IMG/VR virus record: IMGVR_UViG_3300037502_000788
Coordinates: 1 to 33,420 of that record
Strand: one strand, 5' to 3'
Source of the DNA: a virus
DNA: 33,420 bases
In this document: in pieces, positions 9,688 through 26,518 of the stretch
How positions within the stretch are numbered: the first letter of the stretch is position 1
Layout of the letters: each line of letters starts with the position of its first letter
Notes under the pieces: generated by a model
Database searches by the model: none
Told to the model about the DNA's origin: nothing
Seen by the model: the letters and a program-made list of their open reading frames with translations, nothing else
Translations under genes and position numbers: made by a program

Positions 9688-11297
9688 TGATCGCACAACA
9701 GCAAGGTATCGCCGGTCTCGCCCCGGGTCAGGCTGCGCCGCAGCAAGTGCTGCCTCAACAACAGGGCGCTACGCCGCAGGCGGTGACTGGTACGCTTGAG
9801 AAACTGCCCCCGCAGCAGTTGCTGTCCATGTACAACAACCCGCAGGATATGACGCCTAAGTGGGCGGTTGCTACTGCGTACGCCAAGGCTATTGAACAGG
9901 CTCGTCTGATGCAGGCCGCAAGCGGCCAAACCGCTATGATGCAAAGCGCCGCGCAAGCACAGCAGCCTCCGGTAGTGCAGCAGATCATGTCGCAGCCGAT
10001 GCCCGCCGCTGAAGGCGGCATCATGCAGGGTTACGCGCATGGCGGGGCGGTTGCGTTTCAGACCGGTGGCTACGCCCCCGACTATCAGGATGCACGGCGA
10101 TTTGGCATCGACCTGAGCCCATACGATTCTCCCGAGGTTCGCGCCCAGAAACTTGAACGCGTCAAAAAGATGCGTGAGTTTGAAACGCAGATGGCAGGGA
10201 GGCGCGCAGAGATTCCTACGGAGGCAGGGCTTGCAGCGACGGAAGCTGCTTCTGAAACCCAGCGTCTGAAAGCAAGGCCGACTGGCATCATGGGACAGAT
10301 TCCGCCTCCCACCGCCCCCCAACGCGCACCTCGTCCGGGTACTGGTCGGCCTGCGGCTGCTCCCGCTGCGGCTCCTGCGTCCGCTATGGGCATCGCCGCT
10401 CCTGCCAAGCCCGACAACTGGGCTGACATCGAATCACAGGGGCTCAAGGGCATCGCCGCCTTGCAGGATGTGTCCCGCAAGCAGGGGGAGGTGGACCCAG
10501 AACTTGCCCGCCTTCGTGCGGCGGCGTACGAGTCCGCCCAAGGTATCGCTCAGCGTCGGGAACGTGATCGGCTGGCTGCACTGACAGCGGCCGAGAAGGC
10601 TGCGACTGCACCGCTCATGGACAGCCAAGAGGCTTTGCTCCGTCTCGCCGGGTCCATCGGTGGCAAGATGCGGTTTGGTGAGGCTCTCGGTGCGATGGCC
10701 GGTGCCGCTGGCGGCATCCGTGGTGAACAGCGCAAGGCGCTCGAAACTGCCCAACGCGAAAGTCGTCTGGAGCAGAATGCCATCGACCAACTTAATCAAG
10801 CTCTGGCGGAGAAGCGCATTGCCGACCGCAGCGGGGACGTAGATCGGATTCGTGCAGCGGATACCAAGGTGGCTGAGGCTCAACTGAAGGTCACTGAACT
10901 GCGTACCACCATCGGAAAGGAACGGTCGCTTGAAGCTGACCGCGCCGAGCAGCGAGCGCTCACGAAGAGAGATCAGGACATTCGACTTCAGATCGCCCGC
11001 GAAGCCGCTACGGCTAAAGAGGGTGCTGCTGACACTGCCCAGCAGCGTCTTGCAATTCAAGCCATGCGCGCAAATCCTAACTACGCTTCAATAGTGAAAG
11101 AGTTGACTGAGGCACAGAGAATAGCTGCAATCAGCAAGTCCCCCACTGCCCAGGCGCGGTTAACTGCCGCCAAGACCGCTGCCAGTAGTTTGGCTAACGC
11201 GTACGGAGTGAATCCTGCTATGGTAGGCGGTGTAGCGCCCGCTGCACCTACCAGTACCGCAGCGCCTGCTGATCCCCTCGGCATTCGGAAGCCCTGA
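9684..11297 (+). CDS. Putative internal virion / ejection protein with coiled coil
   Basis: A 537-residue protein rich in Ala and Gln. The N-terminal 110 residues are Gln/Pro-rich. 'GGIMQGYAHGGAV' at about 112-124 matches a motif in the protein encoded at 8009. Residues about 190-240 form a Pro/Ala linker. Residues about 314-460 are a long charged helix with coiled-coil composition, preceded by a Gly/Ala patch (RFGEALGAMAGAAGG). It is translationally linked to the genes on both sides (ATGATG at 9684; TGATGA at 11295). Architecture and position directly before the giant protein fit the internal core protein set of podovirus-like particles; this is inference. Confidence 0.6.
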   Translation: MMIAQQQGIAGLAPGQAAPQQVLPQQQGATPQAVTGTLEKLPPQQLLSMYNNPQDMTPKWAVATAYAKAIEQARLMQAASGQTAMMQSAAQAQQPPVVQQIMSQPMPAAEGGIMQGYAHGGAVAFQTGGYAPDYQDARRFGIDLSPYDSPEVRAQKLERVKKMREFETQMAGRRAEIPTEAGLAATEAASETQRLKARPTGIMGQIPPPTAPQRAPRPGTGRPAAAPAAAPASAMGIAAPAKPDNWADIESQGLKGIAALQDVSRKQGEVDPELARLRAAAYESAQGIAQRRERDRLAALTAAEKAATAPLMDSQEALLRLAGSIGGKMRFGEALGAMAGAAGGIRGEQRKALETAQRESRLEQNAIDQLNQALAEKRIADRSGDVDRIRAADTKVAEAQLKVTELRTTIGKERSLEADRAEQRALTKRDQDIRLQIAREAATAKEGAADTAQQRLAIQAMRANPNYASIVKELTEAQRIAAISKSPTAQARLTAAKTAASSLANAYGVNPAMVGGVAPAAPTSTAAPADPLGIRKP

Positions 11298-14200
11298 TGA
11301 ATATCGCCCAAATCCGAGCAAAATATCCTCAGTACAACGACCTGAGTGATAAGCAGCTTGCAGATGCTCTGCATGGTAAGTTTTACTCGGATTTACCTAT
11401 TCAGGACTACTACAAACGGATTGGTTTTGCACCCGAAACCACCGTCCTTGGTCAAGTCAAGGAGTTTGGTAAGGGGCTGATCCCGGGTGCGGTGGGTCTG
11501 GTTGAGCAGGCTGCCATCGGTGCGTCTGCGCTCCTGCCGGAGGAAACCGAGAAGGCTGCGCGGGAAAAGATCGCCAGCATCGCGGGCGCTGCCAAGGCAC
11601 CGTTCGCTGCGGCTCCGGGATACGAGGAGTCAGTTGGGCGTAAGTCCGGACAGGCTGTTGGCTCGACAGTGCCGTTTCTGGCTGCGGGCCCGCTTGGGCT
11701 CGCGGGGCGTCTTGGCGCAGTTGGTCTTGGTGTGGGTGCTGGTGCTGGTGAAGCAAGGACGCGGGCTGAAGAGTCTGGTGCCACTGCGGAGCAGCGGGCG
11801 ACGGCGACGGCGTTGGGTATTGCCCCAGGTGCCTTGGAGGTCTTTGCACCGTTCCGGATCCTGTCCCGCATTCCTGACGCCGCTACGGCTCAGGGTGTGC
11901 AGTTGGTCAAGCGGGCTGCGCTCGCGGGTGGTGAGGAAGCAGCCCAAGAAGCCGCGTCGAACTTCGCCCAGAACCTGATCGCCAAGGGCGTCTACAAGCC
12001 TGAGCAGGAACTCATCGAGGGGCTGGGTGAGGCGGCAGCTTACGGCGGTGCCACTGGTGCCATCGTCCAGGGTCTGCTGGACTTGGCTCTGGGACGGCGC
12101 GCACGCGCTGCGCAGACTGCTCCCACGGAAGCCCCTATCGTGCGTGCAGAACGCCTTGCCGCTGAGAAAGCTGCGGCTGAGGCCCCGCCCCCTGCGCCCG
12201 CTGCTGAAATTCCGCCTGTACCTGAAAGCTATGTCGATCTGGTTTTGTACACGGAACGGTTAAAGCTACTCCCAAAATCCAAGGAACGCGACGCTGCTCT
12301 AAAAGAAGCATACGAGAAGCGCAAAGCTCTTGTTATTGCTGATGTTGAAGCACAACGTGGTGCAGCGGAGAAAGCCAAGGGGTTCATGACTGCCGAAGAG
12401 GCGGCAGCGGCGCAAATTACGCCGAGGGAAGAGGTCACGCCGCCTGAAACACCCCCTGCGCCCCCTGCGGCTGAAACTCCTACTCCGCCCGTCGAAGAGC
12501 CCAAGGTCCGCAAGGTGGGTGAACCTGCACCGCTGCCTGACGTTCTCGACGCCCCGACGATTGCGAAGATCGGCTTCACCCGAGGCTCGATCCACAACAT
12601 GCTGGTCGGCAAGTCTGTCACCGATCCTGAAGTCCGCGAAGTCCTGCAAACGTATCTGGACGCCAAGCGGGAAGAAGGCACGCTGAACCCCAAGACGGAA
12701 GCCAAGATCAACGCGTTCCTGGCACGCTTGCCAGAGGCCGCCGCACCCACCACGGCACCTGCGGTGCCTGTCACGGAGACCCCAAGTGCTGATGCAACTC
12801 AACCAGAAGCAGGTGGAGCAGGCGCTCCAGTGGCTGGCGAGCCCGGTGCAGGAACCGCCCCCGGAGGGGCTGGAGTCGTTGAGCCAACTGGAGTGGTTCC
12901 TCCTGTCGCGGATGCTCAACAGCCTGCTGGAGGAGAAGGACAGCAACCCGCTCCAGTAACGCCCCCTGCTCTAGCCCCGGCTCCCGCGCCCGCTCCCGCC
13001 GCGCCCAAAGAGAAAGGCTCTCTCGAAACCCGCATCAAGGCGCTGAACATCAATGCCGCAGTGGGCGGGGTGCCTGACCTGAAGGTGGTGCGCGGAGCGT
13101 TGGAGTCCCGCGACCCGAAGATGTATCAGGCGGTGGCCTACTACCTGGGCCTTGACCCCGAGGGCAACCTTCTCGTCGGCGCGAACAACATGCCGCAAAC
13201 GCCTTCGGCGCAAGAGGCGGCGCAGATGGCAGGGCTGGGTACAAACTCTGGTGATCGGGTCATAAAGGTTGCCAAGGCGCTGGGTATTACTGCGCCGATT
13301 ATCCGGAAGTTTCAGGCTTCACAGAACGAGACTTTTGCTGCTGGGCGTAGTAAGACTACTTCTGAAGCGGGTACCGGTGCACGATTGGAATCTCCAGAAA
13401 CTGCACTGATTACTGATCAGGAATGGTACAAACCCGTTGCCGCTAAAGGACTTAAAGGGGCTAATCATACGGAAATCGCCCGTGCCGTGCTTCTAGGACA
13501 GCGTTTTCTTCAAAACAAAGAAAACGAACCAGTGTTCATGGAGGTTGCAAAGGAAGCTCAAGCTCGCGCTAAGCGCCCAGAATTTGCCGCCGCCTTCAAG
13601 TCCCAGCAGAGTCTACTCGCCCCTGATCAGACAGGGTTTACGCGTGGTAAAGCAGACGAAGATGCTCTGACTGCGGAGCCCGAGTACGAAGACGACGTAG
13701 CACCTGGGCGGGAAGAAGCTGTTGAAGAGGGGAAAGATCGCGGAGAGGAAATCGAATCCGAAACTCGCGCCCGTGAGACTATCTACCCCGACATCACCCC
13801 TGAAGCTGCGCAATACATTCAGGAGCAAATACAAGGTAAGTCACTGATCGAAGCCGCGCAGTTTACCGCTGACCTTTTCAAGGAAGGCGATCAGAAACTG
13901 ATTGCAGAAAAGACGGTTGAACGCTTGCGGCGTATGGAGGCTGCGGGGGTAAAGTTTGGCTTTGTCGTTGTAGAAAACGGTACGCGTGCACCTACTAGTG
14001 TTGCATCAGGTACGGCACGTGGTGTGTCGGTTCTGAAATTTACAAACGGTAAACCCGACATTACAGTCTATCTGCGGGCACATGATCTGGGGAGCAGTGG
14101 TATTAATCCTCGGATTATGCTGCATGAGTTTCTTCATGCCGCAACACAAGCTGGTATTGAGCTTGGTGTCCGTAATGCTGCGGTGGGGTCTGATATCTCC

Positions 14201-17200
14201 CGCATGACTATCAGCCTGATTGAAGCACAACGGGCGTTTGCAAAACATTTTAATGCGCGTATCGCTGAGTTTAAAGCGGGAAAGACAGAGCTTTCTGAAA
14301 TTGAAGAAGCTATGTATAACCGCAACGTCAACGCTGGAGTTGACGCGCATGAGTTTCTTGCGTGGGGTTTAACGAGTCCAAAGTTCCAGCAATACCTAGA
14401 GACTATCCCTTACAAGGGGCGCTCTCTGTGGACTAAGTTTGTTGACAGCATTCGTTCATTCCTGGGCATGTCTCCTCAGGCAGATACGTTGCTATCTGAA
14501 CTGCTTCACGTTTCTGAAGAAATTCTGAACGCTGACCCCAACGAAGAGATTGCTGTTGGGAAACGAATACTTGGTACGCAACAAGCACCGGCAGTGCAGA
14601 GCGCTGCCATCACACCCCAAACCGAAGAAGCGGTGAAGGGTCTCGATGTCATCGGGGAGCAGAAAGAAGCTCGGCCCATGTCGGGCAACCCGGCGATCAA
14701 GGCGCGTATCAGAGTCGCCAACAACATGGCGGGACTGTTCGATAAGTTTAACGAGTGGTACGGCGGTGCTATTCGTACGAGTGGTAACCGTCTCATCCCT
14801 TCCATATTCCTTTCCCGTGCGTTGGACGCAGACCGTATATCCAACGAAGCGCAACTTGTCGGTGGCCTGCAAAAGGTAAACGAGCTTATTGTTGCTGGTG
14901 AGATTCGTGATGCTAACGGGAACCAAGTTCTTGGTGTAGATGGTAAGCCCCTGAGCTACGCAAATGTGCTCAAGCGTATCGCTGATGCTGCTAAGAAAGA
15001 AGGTAAGTCCTACGAGCAGTACAAGTCTGTTATCGACAAAGTTCTGTACGGGCACCGGGAATTCAACATCCGTGAGAACAACCGTATTATCGAGCAGCAA
15101 GCTGCTGCCCTGGAGGCTATCGGTAAGAAGGATGAGGCTAAGAAGCTGCGGGAAGATATCGCGGTTCTGGCGATCAAGGATAACGCCAAGCTAGATCAGA
15201 TCGAAGCAGAGTTTCAGAACAGTGAGTTTATCAAGGGTGTCTCCTCTGACTTCGATGCTATCCGCTTCAACTTCATTGACATGTTGGTCGAGACCGGACG
15301 GATCAGTAAAGAAGTTGCGCAGGAGTGGAAAGACAACAACGGTTATATTCCGTTCAACCGGACGCAGGATTACGAAGAGGCGTTCGACGCTGAAGGTTCT
15401 CGTGTAAGGGGTGTCGGTGTAACACGCAACATCAAGAAGTTCAAAGGAAGCACGCGTCAGTCTACCTCGGTTATCGACAACTTTTCCAAGCTGCTGGATT
15501 GGGCTACGGGCGAAGCGATGCGGAACGAGGCGAAGAACCGTGCCCTGAAGGACATGGTCTTGATGGGCGCAGCGAAGCCGCGTAACGGCAAAACCCTTGC
15601 ATCCGATGAGCCGGGTGGAGTCGTTAAGACGTTTGAAGACGGCGTTGCTCAGGAATACATCGTTCCCGATCCGATGCTTTTCGTCGGGTTCACGATGCAC
15701 ACGCCTGAGATGAACAAAGTCATCCAGGCATTCAACCGGTACGGTACCCGCGTGCTACGTGCTGGCGTCACTATGATGCCTCCGTTCGCCATTAAGCAGG
15801 TGTTCGACGACATCACCCGCGCCTATACTTTTGCGGGGGTCAAGGATAACGTCACACTTACTAAGAATATCCTGACTAACTTCCCCAAGAACTGGCTGAA
15901 CGAAATACTGAACAAGGAAGTTTGGAAGACCGCAGCAGGGCAGACCAGCGTTAAAGAACTGCGCAGACTCGGCATCGTCGCGTCGTTTGACCTTAGCCGT
16001 GAAGGCAACCTTAAGAACATCGAAGTCGAGGCTGGAGCCAAGGGCGAAACGCTGTGGAACAAGGTCTTGCGTATCATGGAGGCCGGTGCCAAAGCGTCAG
16101 ACGTTTCTGTCCGTCAGGCGATCTACGACCAAGTCCTGAAGGAAACCAAGGATCAGGTTCAGGCTGAATCTGCTGCACGAGAGATCATCAACTTTAGCTA
16201 CCAAGGTGCGGAAAGCACCGTTCGTAATATCGCTAGTGTAGTGCCGTTCTTCAACGCCTACGCGCAAGGTACGGACAAGCTGGCTGTAGCAGCCGCAGGT
16301 AAAGTTGTTGGCATGACCCCCGGCGCTGCGCGGTCCATGTTCTACACCCGCATGACGGTGCTGACTGCACTGGGCTTCGCCTATGCCCTGATGATGCAGG
16401 ACGACGAGGAGTACAACAAACTGCCTGACCACGTGCGGGATACGAACTGGATCATTCCTGGGGCTAAGATCGCGGGGATGCCCGTTGGTATCCCTGTACC
16501 ACAAGACCTTGCTTTCTTCTTTAAGGCGATTCCTGAGCGCGTTGTGCGGTACTACAAGTACCAGGGCACCGAGGAAGAGCGTGCGGCTGTCGAAGTGCTC
16601 TCACAGCTTGCGGCGCGGGGCTACGATGTTTTCTCGCCGCCCAACGTGACCCCGCAGCTTATCCGCCCCCTCTTTGAGAACCTTGTCAACTATTCGTTCT
16701 TCCTGGGCAGGCCGCTGGAGTCGCAGGCTCAGATACAACAGCTTCGCCCGTTTGAGCGGTACGGTGTCGGCACCTCTGACAGCATGAAGATCGTCGCCAG
16801 ATGGCTGGAGAACCTCGCCAACGCTACGGGCATCGACGCCTTCGCTGTGTCTCCGATCAAGCTGGAGAACGCCATGCGGGGCCTTCTGGGTACCACGGGT
16901 GGTACCGCGCTCGCCGTTGTGGACATGATGGTCAACCCATCTCGGACAGACCGCCCCCTGCATCAGCAGTTGTCCACGCAATTGACCGGTGCCAGCGCGG
17001 TACTGAAGAACTCGGTTGGCACGGCCTTCATGGACGAAATCTACAACTTGGAGAAGCGGGTCGAGCAAGTCAACGGCACCTACAACCGGCTGCTGAAGAC
17101 GCAGCCCGAGAAGGCCGAGGGCTACCTCAACGACAACATCGGCATCTACTCCATCCGGGGGCCGGTGCAGGGCATCATGGACGCCATCCGCACGCTCAAC

Positions 17201-17350
17201 GAAGCTGCCATGACCATCGACCGGGACACCTCCCTGAGCCCCGAGGAGCGCCGCAAGCTCATCGACGAACTGCGTGTCGAGCAGAACGAGATCGCCCGGG
17301 TGGTCTTCTCCTTGCGCAAGCAGGCCCGCGACATCCAAGCAGGGCTCTGA
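11297..17350 (+). CDS. Giant (2017-residue) ejection / polyvalent virion protein with HExxH metallopeptidase motif
   Basis: The largest gene in the window and the last of the rightward block. The N-terminal motif (YPQYNDLSDKQLADALHGKFY, with K/R-rich continuation) is common at the start of very large phage proteins. Residues about 100-160 are Gly/Ala-rich and hydrophobic. Pro/Ala linkers occur at about 295-310, 375-400 and 490-575. A zinc peptidase motif HEFLH lies at 943-947, with a probable third ligand Glu1019 in 'AHEFLAWGLTSP'. 'GYIPFNR' near 1347 and 'NFSYQGAE...VVPFFNAYAQG' near 1632-1658 resemble the large polyvalent-protein-associated domain (LPD38 type). The C-terminus is a charged helix. 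Family members are thought to be injected with the DNA. The peptidase might open the cell wall or process host proteins. Confidence 0.75.
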   Translation: MNIAQIRAKYPQYNDLSDKQLADALHGKFYSDLPIQDYYKRIGFAPETTVLGQVKEFGKGLIPGAVGLVEQAAIGASALLPEETEKAAREKIASIAGAAKAPFAAAPGYEESVGRKSGQAVGSTVPFLAAGPLGLAGRLGAVGLGVGAGAGEARTRAEESGATAEQRATATALGIAPGALEVFAPFRILSRIPDAATAQGVQLVKRAALAGGEEAAQEAASNFAQNLIAKGVYKPEQELIEGLGEAAAYGGATGAIVQGLLDLALGRRARAAQTAPTEAPIVRAERLAAEKAAAEAPPPAPAAEIPPVPESYVDLVLYTERLKLLPKSKERDAALKEAYEKRKALVIADVEAQRGAAEKAKGFMTAEEAAAAQITPREEVTPPETPPAPPAAETPTPPVEEPKVRKVGEPAPLPDVLDAPTIAKIGFTRGSIHNMLVGKSVTDPEVREVLQTYLDAKREEGTLNPKTEAKINAFLARLPEAAAPTTAPAVPVTETPSADATQPEAGGAGAPVAGEPGAGTAPGGAGVVEPTGVVPPVADAQQPAGGEGQQPAPVTPPALAPAPAPAPAAPKEKGSLETRIKALNINAAVGGVPDLKVVRGALESRDPKMYQAVAYYLGLDPEGNLLVGANNMPQTPSAQEAAQMAGLGTNSGDRVIKVAKALGITAPIIRKFQASQNETFAAGRSKTTSEAGTGARLESPETALITDQEWYKPVAAKGLKGANHTEIARAVLLGQRFLQNKENEPVFMEVAKEAQARAKRPEFAAAFKSQQSLLAPDQTGFTRGKADEDALTAEPEYEDDVAPGREEAVEEGKDRGEEIESETRARETIYPDITPEAAQYIQEQIQGKSLIEAAQFTADLFKEGDQKLIAEKTVERLRRMEAAGVKFGFVVVENGTRAPTSVASGTARGVSVLKFTNGKPDITVYLRAHDLGSSGINPRIMLHEFLHAATQAGIELGVRNAAVGSDISRMTISLIEAQRAFAKHFNARIAEFKAGKTELSEIEEAMYNRNVNAGVDAHEFLAWGLTSPKFQQYLETIPYKGRSLWTKFVDSIRSFLGMSPQADTLLSELLHVSEEILNADPNEEIAVGKRILGTQQAPAVQSAAITPQTEEAVKGLDVIGEQKEARPMSGNPAIKARIRVANNMAGLFDKFNEWYGGAIRTSGNRLIPSIFLSRALDADRISNEAQLVGGLQKVNELIVAGEIRDANGNQVLGVDGKPLSYANVLKRIADAAKKEGKSYEQYKSVIDKVLYGHREFNIRENNRIIEQQAAALEAIGKKDEAKKLREDIAVLAIKDNAKLDQIEAEFQNSEFIKGVSSDFDAIRFNFIDMLVETGRISKEVAQEWKDNNGYIPFNRTQDYEEAFDAEGSRVRGVGVTRNIKKFKGSTRQSTSVIDNFSKLLDWATGEAMRNEAKNRALKDMVLMGAAKPRNGKTLASDEPGGVVKTFEDGVAQEYIVPDPMLFVGFTMHTPEMNKVIQAFNRYGTRVLRAGVTMMPPFAIKQVFDDITRAYTFAGVKDNVTLTKNILTNFPKNWLNEILNKEVWKTAAGQTSVKELRRLGIVASFDLSREGNLKNIEVEAGAKGETLWNKVLRIMEAGAKASDVSVRQAIYDQVLKETKDQVQAESAAREIINFSYQGAESTVRNIASVVPFFNAYAQGTDKLAVAAAGKVVGMTPGAARSMFYTRMTVLTALGFAYALMMQDDEEYNKLPDHVRDTNWIIPGAKIAGMPVGIPVPQDLAFFFKAIPERVVRYYKYQGTEEERAAVEVLSQLAARGYDVFSPPNVTPQLIRPLFENLVNYSFFLGRPLESQAQIQQLRPFERYGVGTSDSMKIVARWLENLANATGIDAFAVSPIKLENAMRGLLGTTGGTALAVVDMMVNPSRTDRPLHQQLSTQLTGASAVLKNSVGTAFMDEIYNLEKRVEQVNGTYNRLLKTQPEKAEGYLNDNIGIYSIRGPVQGIMDAIRTLNEAAMTIDRDTSLSPEERRKLIDELRVEQNEIARVVFSLRKQARDIQAGL

Positions 17351-24609: not shown

Positions 24610-24879
24610 TCAACGTCCGCCTGAGCGCGGACCTTTGAAATTCTTGGCGCTGTTCTTGCTGAAACTCGTCAGCCTGACATTGCCGGGTTTACTCTTCCCA
24701 CCGTCCTTGATGGGCTTCACATGATCGAGGGCTTTACCCTCTCGGGACGCTTTTCCATGTTCCTTGTCCCACGCTCGACGCGCCCGTTGTCTTTCGGACT
24801 GCTTGGCCCGACCACCGTTGGCGAGGAAGTCTTTGTATTCCTGACGGTGGTCTCGGTCGGATTTGTCTTTGTATGGCAC
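24610..24879 (-). CDS. Small HNH endonuclease-like protein
   Basis: An 89-residue protein. The HNH core is 'LDHVKPIKDGG.....GNVRLTS..KN' at about residues 51-77, with a very basic N-terminal half (RAKQSERQRARRAW). No zinc-binding CxxC pairs are visible. It starts with GTG at 24879, preceded by GGAG seven bases away. Small HNH proteins in phages serve in packaging, in recombination or as homing enzymes. Here it sits in the replication operon between the Cas4-like nuclease and the exonuclease. A second reading frame with its own GTG and Shine-Dalgarno site overlaps its first half. Confidence 0.8.
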   Translation of the reverse strand: MPYKDKSDRDHRQEYKDFLANGGRAKQSERQRARRAWDKEHGKASREGKALDHVKPIKDGGKSKPGNVRLTSFSKNSAKNFKGPRSGGR

Positions 24880-24910: not shown

Positions 24911-26518
24911 TCACGTGTTAACTCCATTGTGCGGGCATGACGTAACAACGCAGTGCTTTTTGCAGAGGCCTGAGGGATTAGGGTTCCACACACCGGTTTT
25001 GTACGCAGTCTCCAGCCTACCGACGTCCTGCATCCACTGCCGCCAGTAAACCTTCTCTTGCTCCCGCTCGTACTCAGCGGGCTTGAAGTGGTTTGCCACT
25101 ACGAAGAGCAGCCCGCCCTTGACCTTGCGAATCTTGGGGAAGTGCTTGAAGATCATGAGCGCCATCAGTTCCAACTGCGCGGTGTCCGCGTACTTGGCTG
25201 ACTTACCTGTGTTATGAGTCGGAATGTAGTGTTCCGTACATAAATACATATTGTTTGGTGACCCAACAGATATGCACTGGGTAGGGCGACTTTCTGTAGG
25301 TACGACTTTAAGTATCTCTAAGTACGTGCGCCCACCAAAAAAAGACTCCGCTACTATAGCTTTCTTTGGTGTTAAGAAAGGGTTGAACCTATGAGGGCGA
25401 AATGACAGAGGATAGGCGGTTCCCGTTGTACCGAATCCTTTATACTGCGTCACACTCTGCAAACAACGTACACCCAAAGACTCAAGTACCTCTCTTACAT
25501 CATCAGACAGACGCTTACTGACTATGTTTAGCACCGCTTGTTTTCTTATCGGGTTGGCGTAGCCGTCGCCGTCCATTATACCGCGTATAAGATCAACTCG
25601 TTGTTCGTAAGAACAACGTTTATACAATTCGGGTATGTGTTTGTTACCCATAACGGATAACTGATGTAACGCGTTACGAATACCTTTGATAGTTCTTGTC
25701 TCGCATTGAGCGCCCGTAATGTTAGTATCTACCCCAAGATTGTACCCGCGTCTTTCTACTTCTTGAAACATAAACGCATCACCTTTGGTAACAACCGCAG
25801 CGGACTTATGTCCATCTGCCAACCAAAACCCGAGCACATACGGGTCGATAGGAAGATCAGCGGTTGAGTACGCAACGGGGGCTGGTATTGGGATGCGATC
25901 TCTTGGACTAAGACTTTTTACGTTTACTATATCACCAGAAAGTAGTCCCCATAGATGTTCTTCATCGCACACAACAGAGACGCCGTTAGTAAATTGTACT
26001 TCGTAACACGGTAGGTTTTTAACTTGTGATTTGCCAGTAACAGGATAAGGTAACCCGTCAGTGCCAAATACTAAGTCACCTACTTTTAGGCTTCCCATAG
26101 TTACAAACCCATTGGGAGTAGGGATGAGCGTGTTAACGTCCAAACCCTTGTAGTCCACCACCCGCGCCGTGCCCTTCTCTTCGTTGACGATGAGCAAGTC
26201 GGCCACGCCCCTGCACCATACATCGGGCGCATCGAACGCGCAAGGCTCCAAAGCCTGTGTCAGGCCCATCTTGTGCTCGCAGAGCTTCTGGCCCGGGATC
26301 GCCCGCAGGGCGTCGAGGTGGGGCTTGACGTAAGCGAACGCCCCAGGCAGTGGGGTGCCATCCTGCACGTAGTGCTCAGCGGCCTCGTGGAAGTTCGTCC
26401 CGTAGAGCGTAGCCTCGGTAAAGGGCGGCTCGGTGAAGTTCCGGTACACCTTGACTTCAGCATACTGCTTCGGACAGGTCTTGAACTTCTTCAGGGACGA
26501 GTACGACCAAGCCTTCAC
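24911..26518 (-). CDS. Cas4/RecB-like PD-(D/E)XK nuclease interrupted by an intein
   Basis: A 535-residue precursor; removing the intein (residues 125-436) leaves a 223-residue nuclease. The nuclease part shows His44 (TNFHEAAEHY), Asp106 (GVADLLIV) and Asp122-x-Lys124 (VVDYK), the PD-(D/E)XK exonuclease pattern. Rejoining the exteins restores DYKTGK. Four cysteines, Cys15 plus Cys519, Cys523 and Cys528 at the C-terminus, match the arrangement that holds an iron-sulphur cluster in Cas4 and AddB nucleases. It starts with a GTG that overlaps the upstream stop (GTGA). The probable role is end resection in replication or recombination. Activity should require splicing, because the intein separates the catalytic Lys from the TGK segment. 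Confidence 0.88.
   Translation of the reverse strand: MKAWSYSSLKKFKTCPKQYAEVKVYRNFTEPPFTEATLYGTNFHEAAEHYVQDGTPLPGAFAYVKPHLDALRAIPGQKLCEHKMGLTQALEPCAFDAPDVWCRGVADLLIVNEEKGTARVVDYKGLDVNTLIPTPNGFVTMGSLKVGDLVFGTDGLPYPVTGKSQVKNLPCYEVQFTNGVSVVCDEEHLWGLLSGDIVNVKSLSPRDRIPIPAPVAYSTADLPIDPYVLGFWLADGHKSAAVVTKGDAFMFQEVERRGYNLGVDTNITGAQCETRTIKGIRNALHQLSVMGNKHIPELYKRCSYEQRVDLIRGIMDGDGYANPIRKQAVLNIVSKRLSDDVREVLESLGVRCLQSVTQYKGFGTTGTAYPLSFRPHRFNPFLTPKKAIVAESFFGGRTYLEILKVVPTESRPTQCISVGSPNNMYLCTEHYIPTHNTGKSAKYADTAQLELMALMIFKHFPKIRKVKGGLLFVVANHFKPAEYEREQEKVYWRQWMQDVGRLETAYKTGVWNPNPSGLCKKHCVVTSCPHNGVNT
25211..26146 (-). mobile_element. Class 3 LAGLIDADG intein (312 residues)
   Basis: Precursor residues 125-436. 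Block A reads 'GLDVNTLIPTPNGFVTMGSL', with Gly, not Cys or Ser, at position 1. Block B has His188 and Trp190 (EEHLW). Block F has Cys415 (TQCISV) where class 1 inteins usually have Asp. Block G is 'PTHN' with Thr434, His435 and Asn436, followed by Thr437 as +1 residue. Trp, Cys and Thr at these places are the marker set of class 3 inteins, which use the block F Cys as first nucleophile. Two LAGLIDADG helices (LGFWLADGH near 229-237 and LIRGIMDGDGY near 310-320) indicate a homing endonuclease. The DNA is visibly more A/T-rich than the flanking nuclease sequence. Confidence 0.88.

Follow-up and report, generated by a model that had tools for sequence, protein, structure and literature searches.

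A class 3 intein with a LAGLIDADG endonuclease domain at the catalytic lysine of a phage PD-(D/E)xK nuclease

The DNA under study (the window) is an entire IMG/VR virus record of 33,420 bases, and it encodes a PD-(D/E)xK (Cas4/RecB-like) nuclease that is split by an intein. We consider it very likely, at a probability of roughly 94%, that the insert is a mobile class 3 intein carrying a LAGLIDADG homing endonuclease, seated between catalytic Lys124 of the D-x-K motif and Thr+1 of the phage nuclease. Close relatives of the virus carry the same nuclease gene without the intein, and the intein itself belongs to a group that extends well beyond the mycobacteriophages in which it was reported in 2016.

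Results

The precursor is read from the minus strand (26518..24911) from a GTG start and has 535 amino acids, of which residues 125-436 form the 312-residue intein (26146..25211). The intein begins with Gly1 and ends with His311-Asn312, residue +1 is Thr, and the junctions read VVDYK/GLDV and YIPTHN/TGKS. When the whole protein was used as query in a scan of IMG/VR, 14 relatives (L001-L014) matched both ends of the open reading frame (ORF) but not its middle. The closest of these, L001 (97% identical over its best segment), has RVVDYK/TGKSAK where the window has the same residues separated by 312 others. Since L001 joins K directly to T (empty site GTGGACTACAAG/ACGGGCAAGTCA), both intein junctions are fixed exactly, and the boundaries 25211-26146 and the Gly at position 1 given in the original prediction proved correct to the residue. 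The reading frame is open all the way through the insert, natural empty alleles join at K/T, and the G+C content is 44.7% in the intein versus 59.1% in the exteins, all of which argues that the insert is not a product of chance. The features of the precursor are listed in Table 1.

Table 1. Parts and key codons of the intein-split nuclease gene in the window
Feature	Position	Strand	Evidence
N-extein, nuclease residues 1-124, ending at catalytic-motif Lys124 (VVDYK)	26147..26518	-	PF12705, phrog_69; conserved in L001-L014
Class 3 intein with internal LAGLIDADG endonuclease domain	25211..26146	-	Empty-site relatives, class 3 matches, AlphaFold/Foldseek
Block B His188 codon (intein H64), two codons upstream of Trp190	25955-25957	-	Alignments
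Trp190 codon (B:12; intein W66)	25949..25951	-	Alignments
LAGLIDADG motifs, VLGFWLADG (intein D111) to LIRGIMDGDG (intein D192, D194)	25562..25837	-	PF14528 LAGLIDADG_3, E 5.4e-05
Cys415 codon (F:4; intein C291), proposed initiating nucleophile	25274..25276	-	Aligned with block F Cys of 6rix/6riy/6bs8; 139/139
Thr434 codon (G:5; intein T310), followed by His435-Asn436	25217..25219	-	Alignments
C-extein, from Thr+1 (TGKS) to terminal Cys cluster (GLCKKHCVVTSC)	24911..25210	-	Continuous with N-extein in L001-L014

The exteins matched PF12705 (PDDEXK_1; E 3.5e-10) in two stretches outside the insert and the exonuclease family phrog_69 (E 9.3e-16), and residues 4-214 of the uninterrupted L001 protein matched PF12705 with an E value of 4.7e-16. 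The nuclease motifs H44, D107, D122-x-K124 and Q136 are invariant in 8 intein-less relatives, and so are four cysteines, one N-terminal (C15) and three C-terminal (C207, C211 and C216, spliced numbering). We take this pattern of four cysteines with H/D/D-x-K/Q to be that of Cas4/AddB-type Fe-S nucleases, with a putative cluster. The Pfam matches, phrog_69 and the conserved motifs support the Cas4/RecB-type host that had been proposed from the sequence. L001 scored under the family cut-off of PF01930 (Cas_Cas4); 'Cas4-like' is an acceptable loose label, with no CRISPR role implied. A terminase identity, taken from PHROG matches, was rejected, as those matches reflect shared inteins and the extein is not a terminase. 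The intein-less form of the nuclease gave a poor structural model (pLDDT 47.7).

Two other ORFs of the window were noted. Just downstream of the precursor, an 89-residue ORF (24610-24879, minus strand) has HNH endonuclease-like letters (DHVKPIKDGGKSKPGNVRL), and a Pfam search at 0.001 gave no match for it. In a 2017-residue ORF on the plus strand (11297-17350), the stretch 849-1089 matches the virion RNA polymerase family phrog_2206 (E 1.6e-11).

To place the splicing domain, we compared it with known inteins. Among solved structures, the best phmmer matches were the DnaB class 3 inteins of Mycobacterium chimaera and M. smegmatis (6rix, E 2.7e-16; 6riy, 9.4e-16; 6bs8, 3.2e-15). Block B reads DxxHxW in these alignments, with Trp190 two residues past His188, and the C-terminal stretch PTQCISVGSPNNMYLCTEHYIPTHN aligns with PVRCVEVDNPAHLYLAGRGMVPTHN of the DnaB inteins. 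The alignments thus place Cys415 at F:4, Trp190 at B:12 and Thr434 at G:5, matching the positions published for class 3 (PMC5050341, PMC5222942, PMC3196547). We also gathered inteins from viral contigs, bacterial genomes and annotated phages and compared the 139 full-length ones, for which a terminal His-Asn was a selection criterion. The Trp, Cys and Thr (WCT) and the block B His were invariant in this set (139/139). Position 1 is Ala in 86 of them and Gly in 34, residue -1 is Lys in 126/139, and residue +1 is Thr (78), Ser (59) or Cys (2). Gly1 of the window intein, set by the empty-site relative, is a non-nucleophile, as is general in class 3, and the C-terminal end PTHN/T supplies both the Thr at G:5 and the terminal His-Asn.

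The original prediction had located Trp190, Cys415 and Thr434 and hung on Cys415 lying at block F position 4; it does so in the alignments with 6rix, 6riy and 6bs8, and the collected inteins all share it. The WCT set, the block B His, the terminal His-Asn and the matches to class 3 structures support the predicted class. PF14890 (Intein_splicing), the general Pfam model of intein splicing, had no match anywhere in the window, so this intein would be overlooked if that model alone were used. Two variants were seen within the collection. The nuclease-site class 3 inteins of viral contigs L039 and L041 have Cys at +1 in place of Thr (VLDLK/G...THN/CPGT), and that of Mycobacterium phage Ghost (gp214; L022) has a complete WCT set even though its first residue, Ser, could serve as a class 1 nucleophile.

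An AlphaFold2 model of the intein, based on an alignment of 31 inteins, reached a pLDDT of 95.6 and a pTM of 0.92. In Foldseek searches of the PDB, PI-SceI matched over the entire length of the model (TMq 0.71-0.78) and the class 3 DnaB inteins matched over the splicing domain (TMt 0.85-0.92). The third match among viral models was the 'HNH endonuclease' precursor of mycobacteriophage Shrimp (TMq 0.93), a relative of the mycobacteriophage RecB/Cas4-like group. Both LAGLIDADG motifs keep their catalytic acids, with D111 present in 131/139 inteins, D192 in 139/139 and D194 in 131/139.

Because Gly1 offers no N-terminal nucleophile, we propose Cys415 as the attacking residue. Helped by His188, Trp190 and Thr434, it would attack the Lys124-Gly1 bond to form a branched intermediate at block F, from which the N-extein would be handed to Thr+1. 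Asn436 would then cyclise, and an O-to-N shift would leave ...VVDYKTGKS..., the same as in the intein-less relatives. The intein directly follows the catalytic lysine and interrupts the active site, suggesting that the precursor would lack nuclease activity before it splices.

A non-nucleophile at position 1 is also found in class 2 (KlbA) inteins, and a class 2-like element would have Thr+1 attack the N-junction directly, leaving Cys415 dispensable. We regard this as extremely improbable, since the block F Cys, the block B Trp and the block G Thr-His-Asn fit class 3 in 139/139 relatives, whereas the class 2 inteins known so far are KlbA orthologues only, with Ser at G:6 and Asp at F:4 (PMC4031507). 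It is also highly improbable that the window holds a degenerate class 3 intein that has lost splicing and left the nuclease dead. Such pseudogenes are on record, as in Arthrobacter Arth_1007, but there F:4 is not Cys, B:10 is not His and the exteins are very short (PMC3196547). The gene in the window retains all catalytic residues, both endonuclease acids and the motifs of the nuclease in an open reading frame.

The relatives L001-L004 are without the intein, and the flanking DNA of L001-L003 is about 84-90% identical to the window on both sides of the site. Compared with other relatives, the intein is 34-50% identical, more than the nuclease exteins (17-32%; 45% in L025). Within the relatives that share Gly1, intein identity is 37-50% and extein identity mostly 21-32%, which is consistent with horizontal movement. 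No near-identical intein was found among those collected (best 50%, L025), so it is only from base composition and the empty alleles that we infer recent mobility of this copy. The G+C contrast, the empty alleles, the difference in identity and the intact acids support a horizontal gain as a homing intein. In such a process, co-infecting relatives without the intein would have their allele cut by the endonuclease domain and would then receive a copy of the element.

To relate the inteins to one another, we examined a tree of 102 of them, with SH-aLRT support only, in which the window intein falls inside the WCT inteins as judged with a single, long-branch class 1 outgroup (L187). The nuclease-site set was first drawn by the junction pattern [DE].K, and 12 RLEGK/S junctions and L103 were then removed; its members lie in two parts of the tree that are apart from each other. 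In one, the inteins of Ghost and ScoobyDoobyDoo (Ser1/Ala1) are joined by the terminase-type intein L103 (support 100), and Kelley et al. likewise grouped RecB inteins with TerL1-d (PMC5050341). The other 25 of 25 nuclease-site inteins in the tree, all with Gly1, lie in one set (support 98) with a single outsider, L119. Nuclease hosts were for the most part assigned by junction motif, and Pfam confirmed PDDEXK_1 in 5/9 of the nuclease-junction precursors scanned. A single clade of nuclease inteins was rejected (p-AU 0.0039) in a reduced set of 61 inteins, for which both the rows and the tested grouping were picked after the first tree was seen.

The rejection of one clade and the two places in the tree suggest that class 3 inteins probably entered the catalytic Lys/Thr site of phage PD-(D/E)xK nucleases on two or more occasions. 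One lineage would be that of the C1 mycobacteriophages, which is related to terminase inteins, and the other a wide Gly1 lineage that includes the window and spans phages of Pseudomonas, Mycobacterium, Streptomyces and gut bacteria, from Gram-negative to actinobacterial hosts, as well as the host of the window. In the literature searched, which took in few subscription papers, we found no paper describing this wider lineage.

L119 (2501-3487 of a Hydrogenophaga MAG contig) is a Gly1 class 3 intein in a RecT-family protein (PF03837), with the junction EMIKK/TAVK, and the tree places it nearest to the Gly1 nuclease lineage. CN1A and Slicko01 were rejected as nuclease-hosted, as their exteins are of terminase type, though one CN1A record is annotated as an exonuclease.

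Discussion

With the window, a known group gains a class 3 intein whose limits are well defined and for which close relatives provide natural alleles without the insert. The nuclease-hosted group is far wider than the mycobacteriophages, but no new class of host protein is opened. A Lys/(Thr or Ser) junction has been used repeatedly in folds that are not related (DxK/T in the nuclease, GK/T or GK/S in P-loops), which supports the view that class 3 inteins spread when homing takes them into short, conserved stretches of active sites.

The combination of a class 3 intein, a Cas4/RecB-like nuclease and an active-site insertion is not new, as it was reported in mycobacteriophages in 2016. The original prediction expected the class 3 host range to be extended, but Kelley et al. 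had already listed 40 inteins in the 'CRISPR-associated Cas4 RecB-like exonuclease' of C1 mycobacteriophages, all inserted at a single point of the PD-(D/E)XK motif, and placed them in the class 3 tree (PMC5050341). Catera gp206 and its C1 orthologues carry an intein, intein-less C1 homologues exist, and more distant versions occur in Omega and Kostya (PMC3029335). According to PMC3196547, class 3 splicing of the Catera Gp206 intein was efficient when tested. From PMC3029335, PMC5050341 and our tree, this intein probably belongs to the C1 RecB group. The public phages Ghost, ScoobyDoobyDoo, Zeeculate, Frankenweenie and Rollin each have a class 3 intein at this (D/E)xK/T position as well.

Like the window intein, the C1 mycobacteriophage inteins have the WCT set, a LAGLIDADG endonuclease and a Cas4/RecB-like PD-(D/E)xK host, and those of Ghost and ScoobyDoobyDoo (L020) sit directly after the (D/E)xK lysine with Thr at +1. 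They differ in having Ser or Ala rather than Gly at position 1, share only about 34-36% intein identity with it, and form a separate lineage, sister to the terminase-type intein in the tree. The inteins of Pseudomonas phage Rollin (OR577172), Zeeculate, Frankenweenie and metagenomic phages share with it Gly1, the DxK/T site, WCT, the endonuclease and a place in the same tree set; their host proteins are labelled in public records as exonuclease, RecB-like/Cas4 exonuclease or hypothetical protein. Intein identity to this lineage is 40-50%, and the exteins are mostly 22-27% identical (45% in L025). The Mycobacterium DnaB class 3 mini-inteins (6rix, 6riy, 6bs8) share the splicing-domain sequence, the fold and the WCT active site with the window intein, but they are without an endonuclease domain and are hosted by the DnaB helicase.
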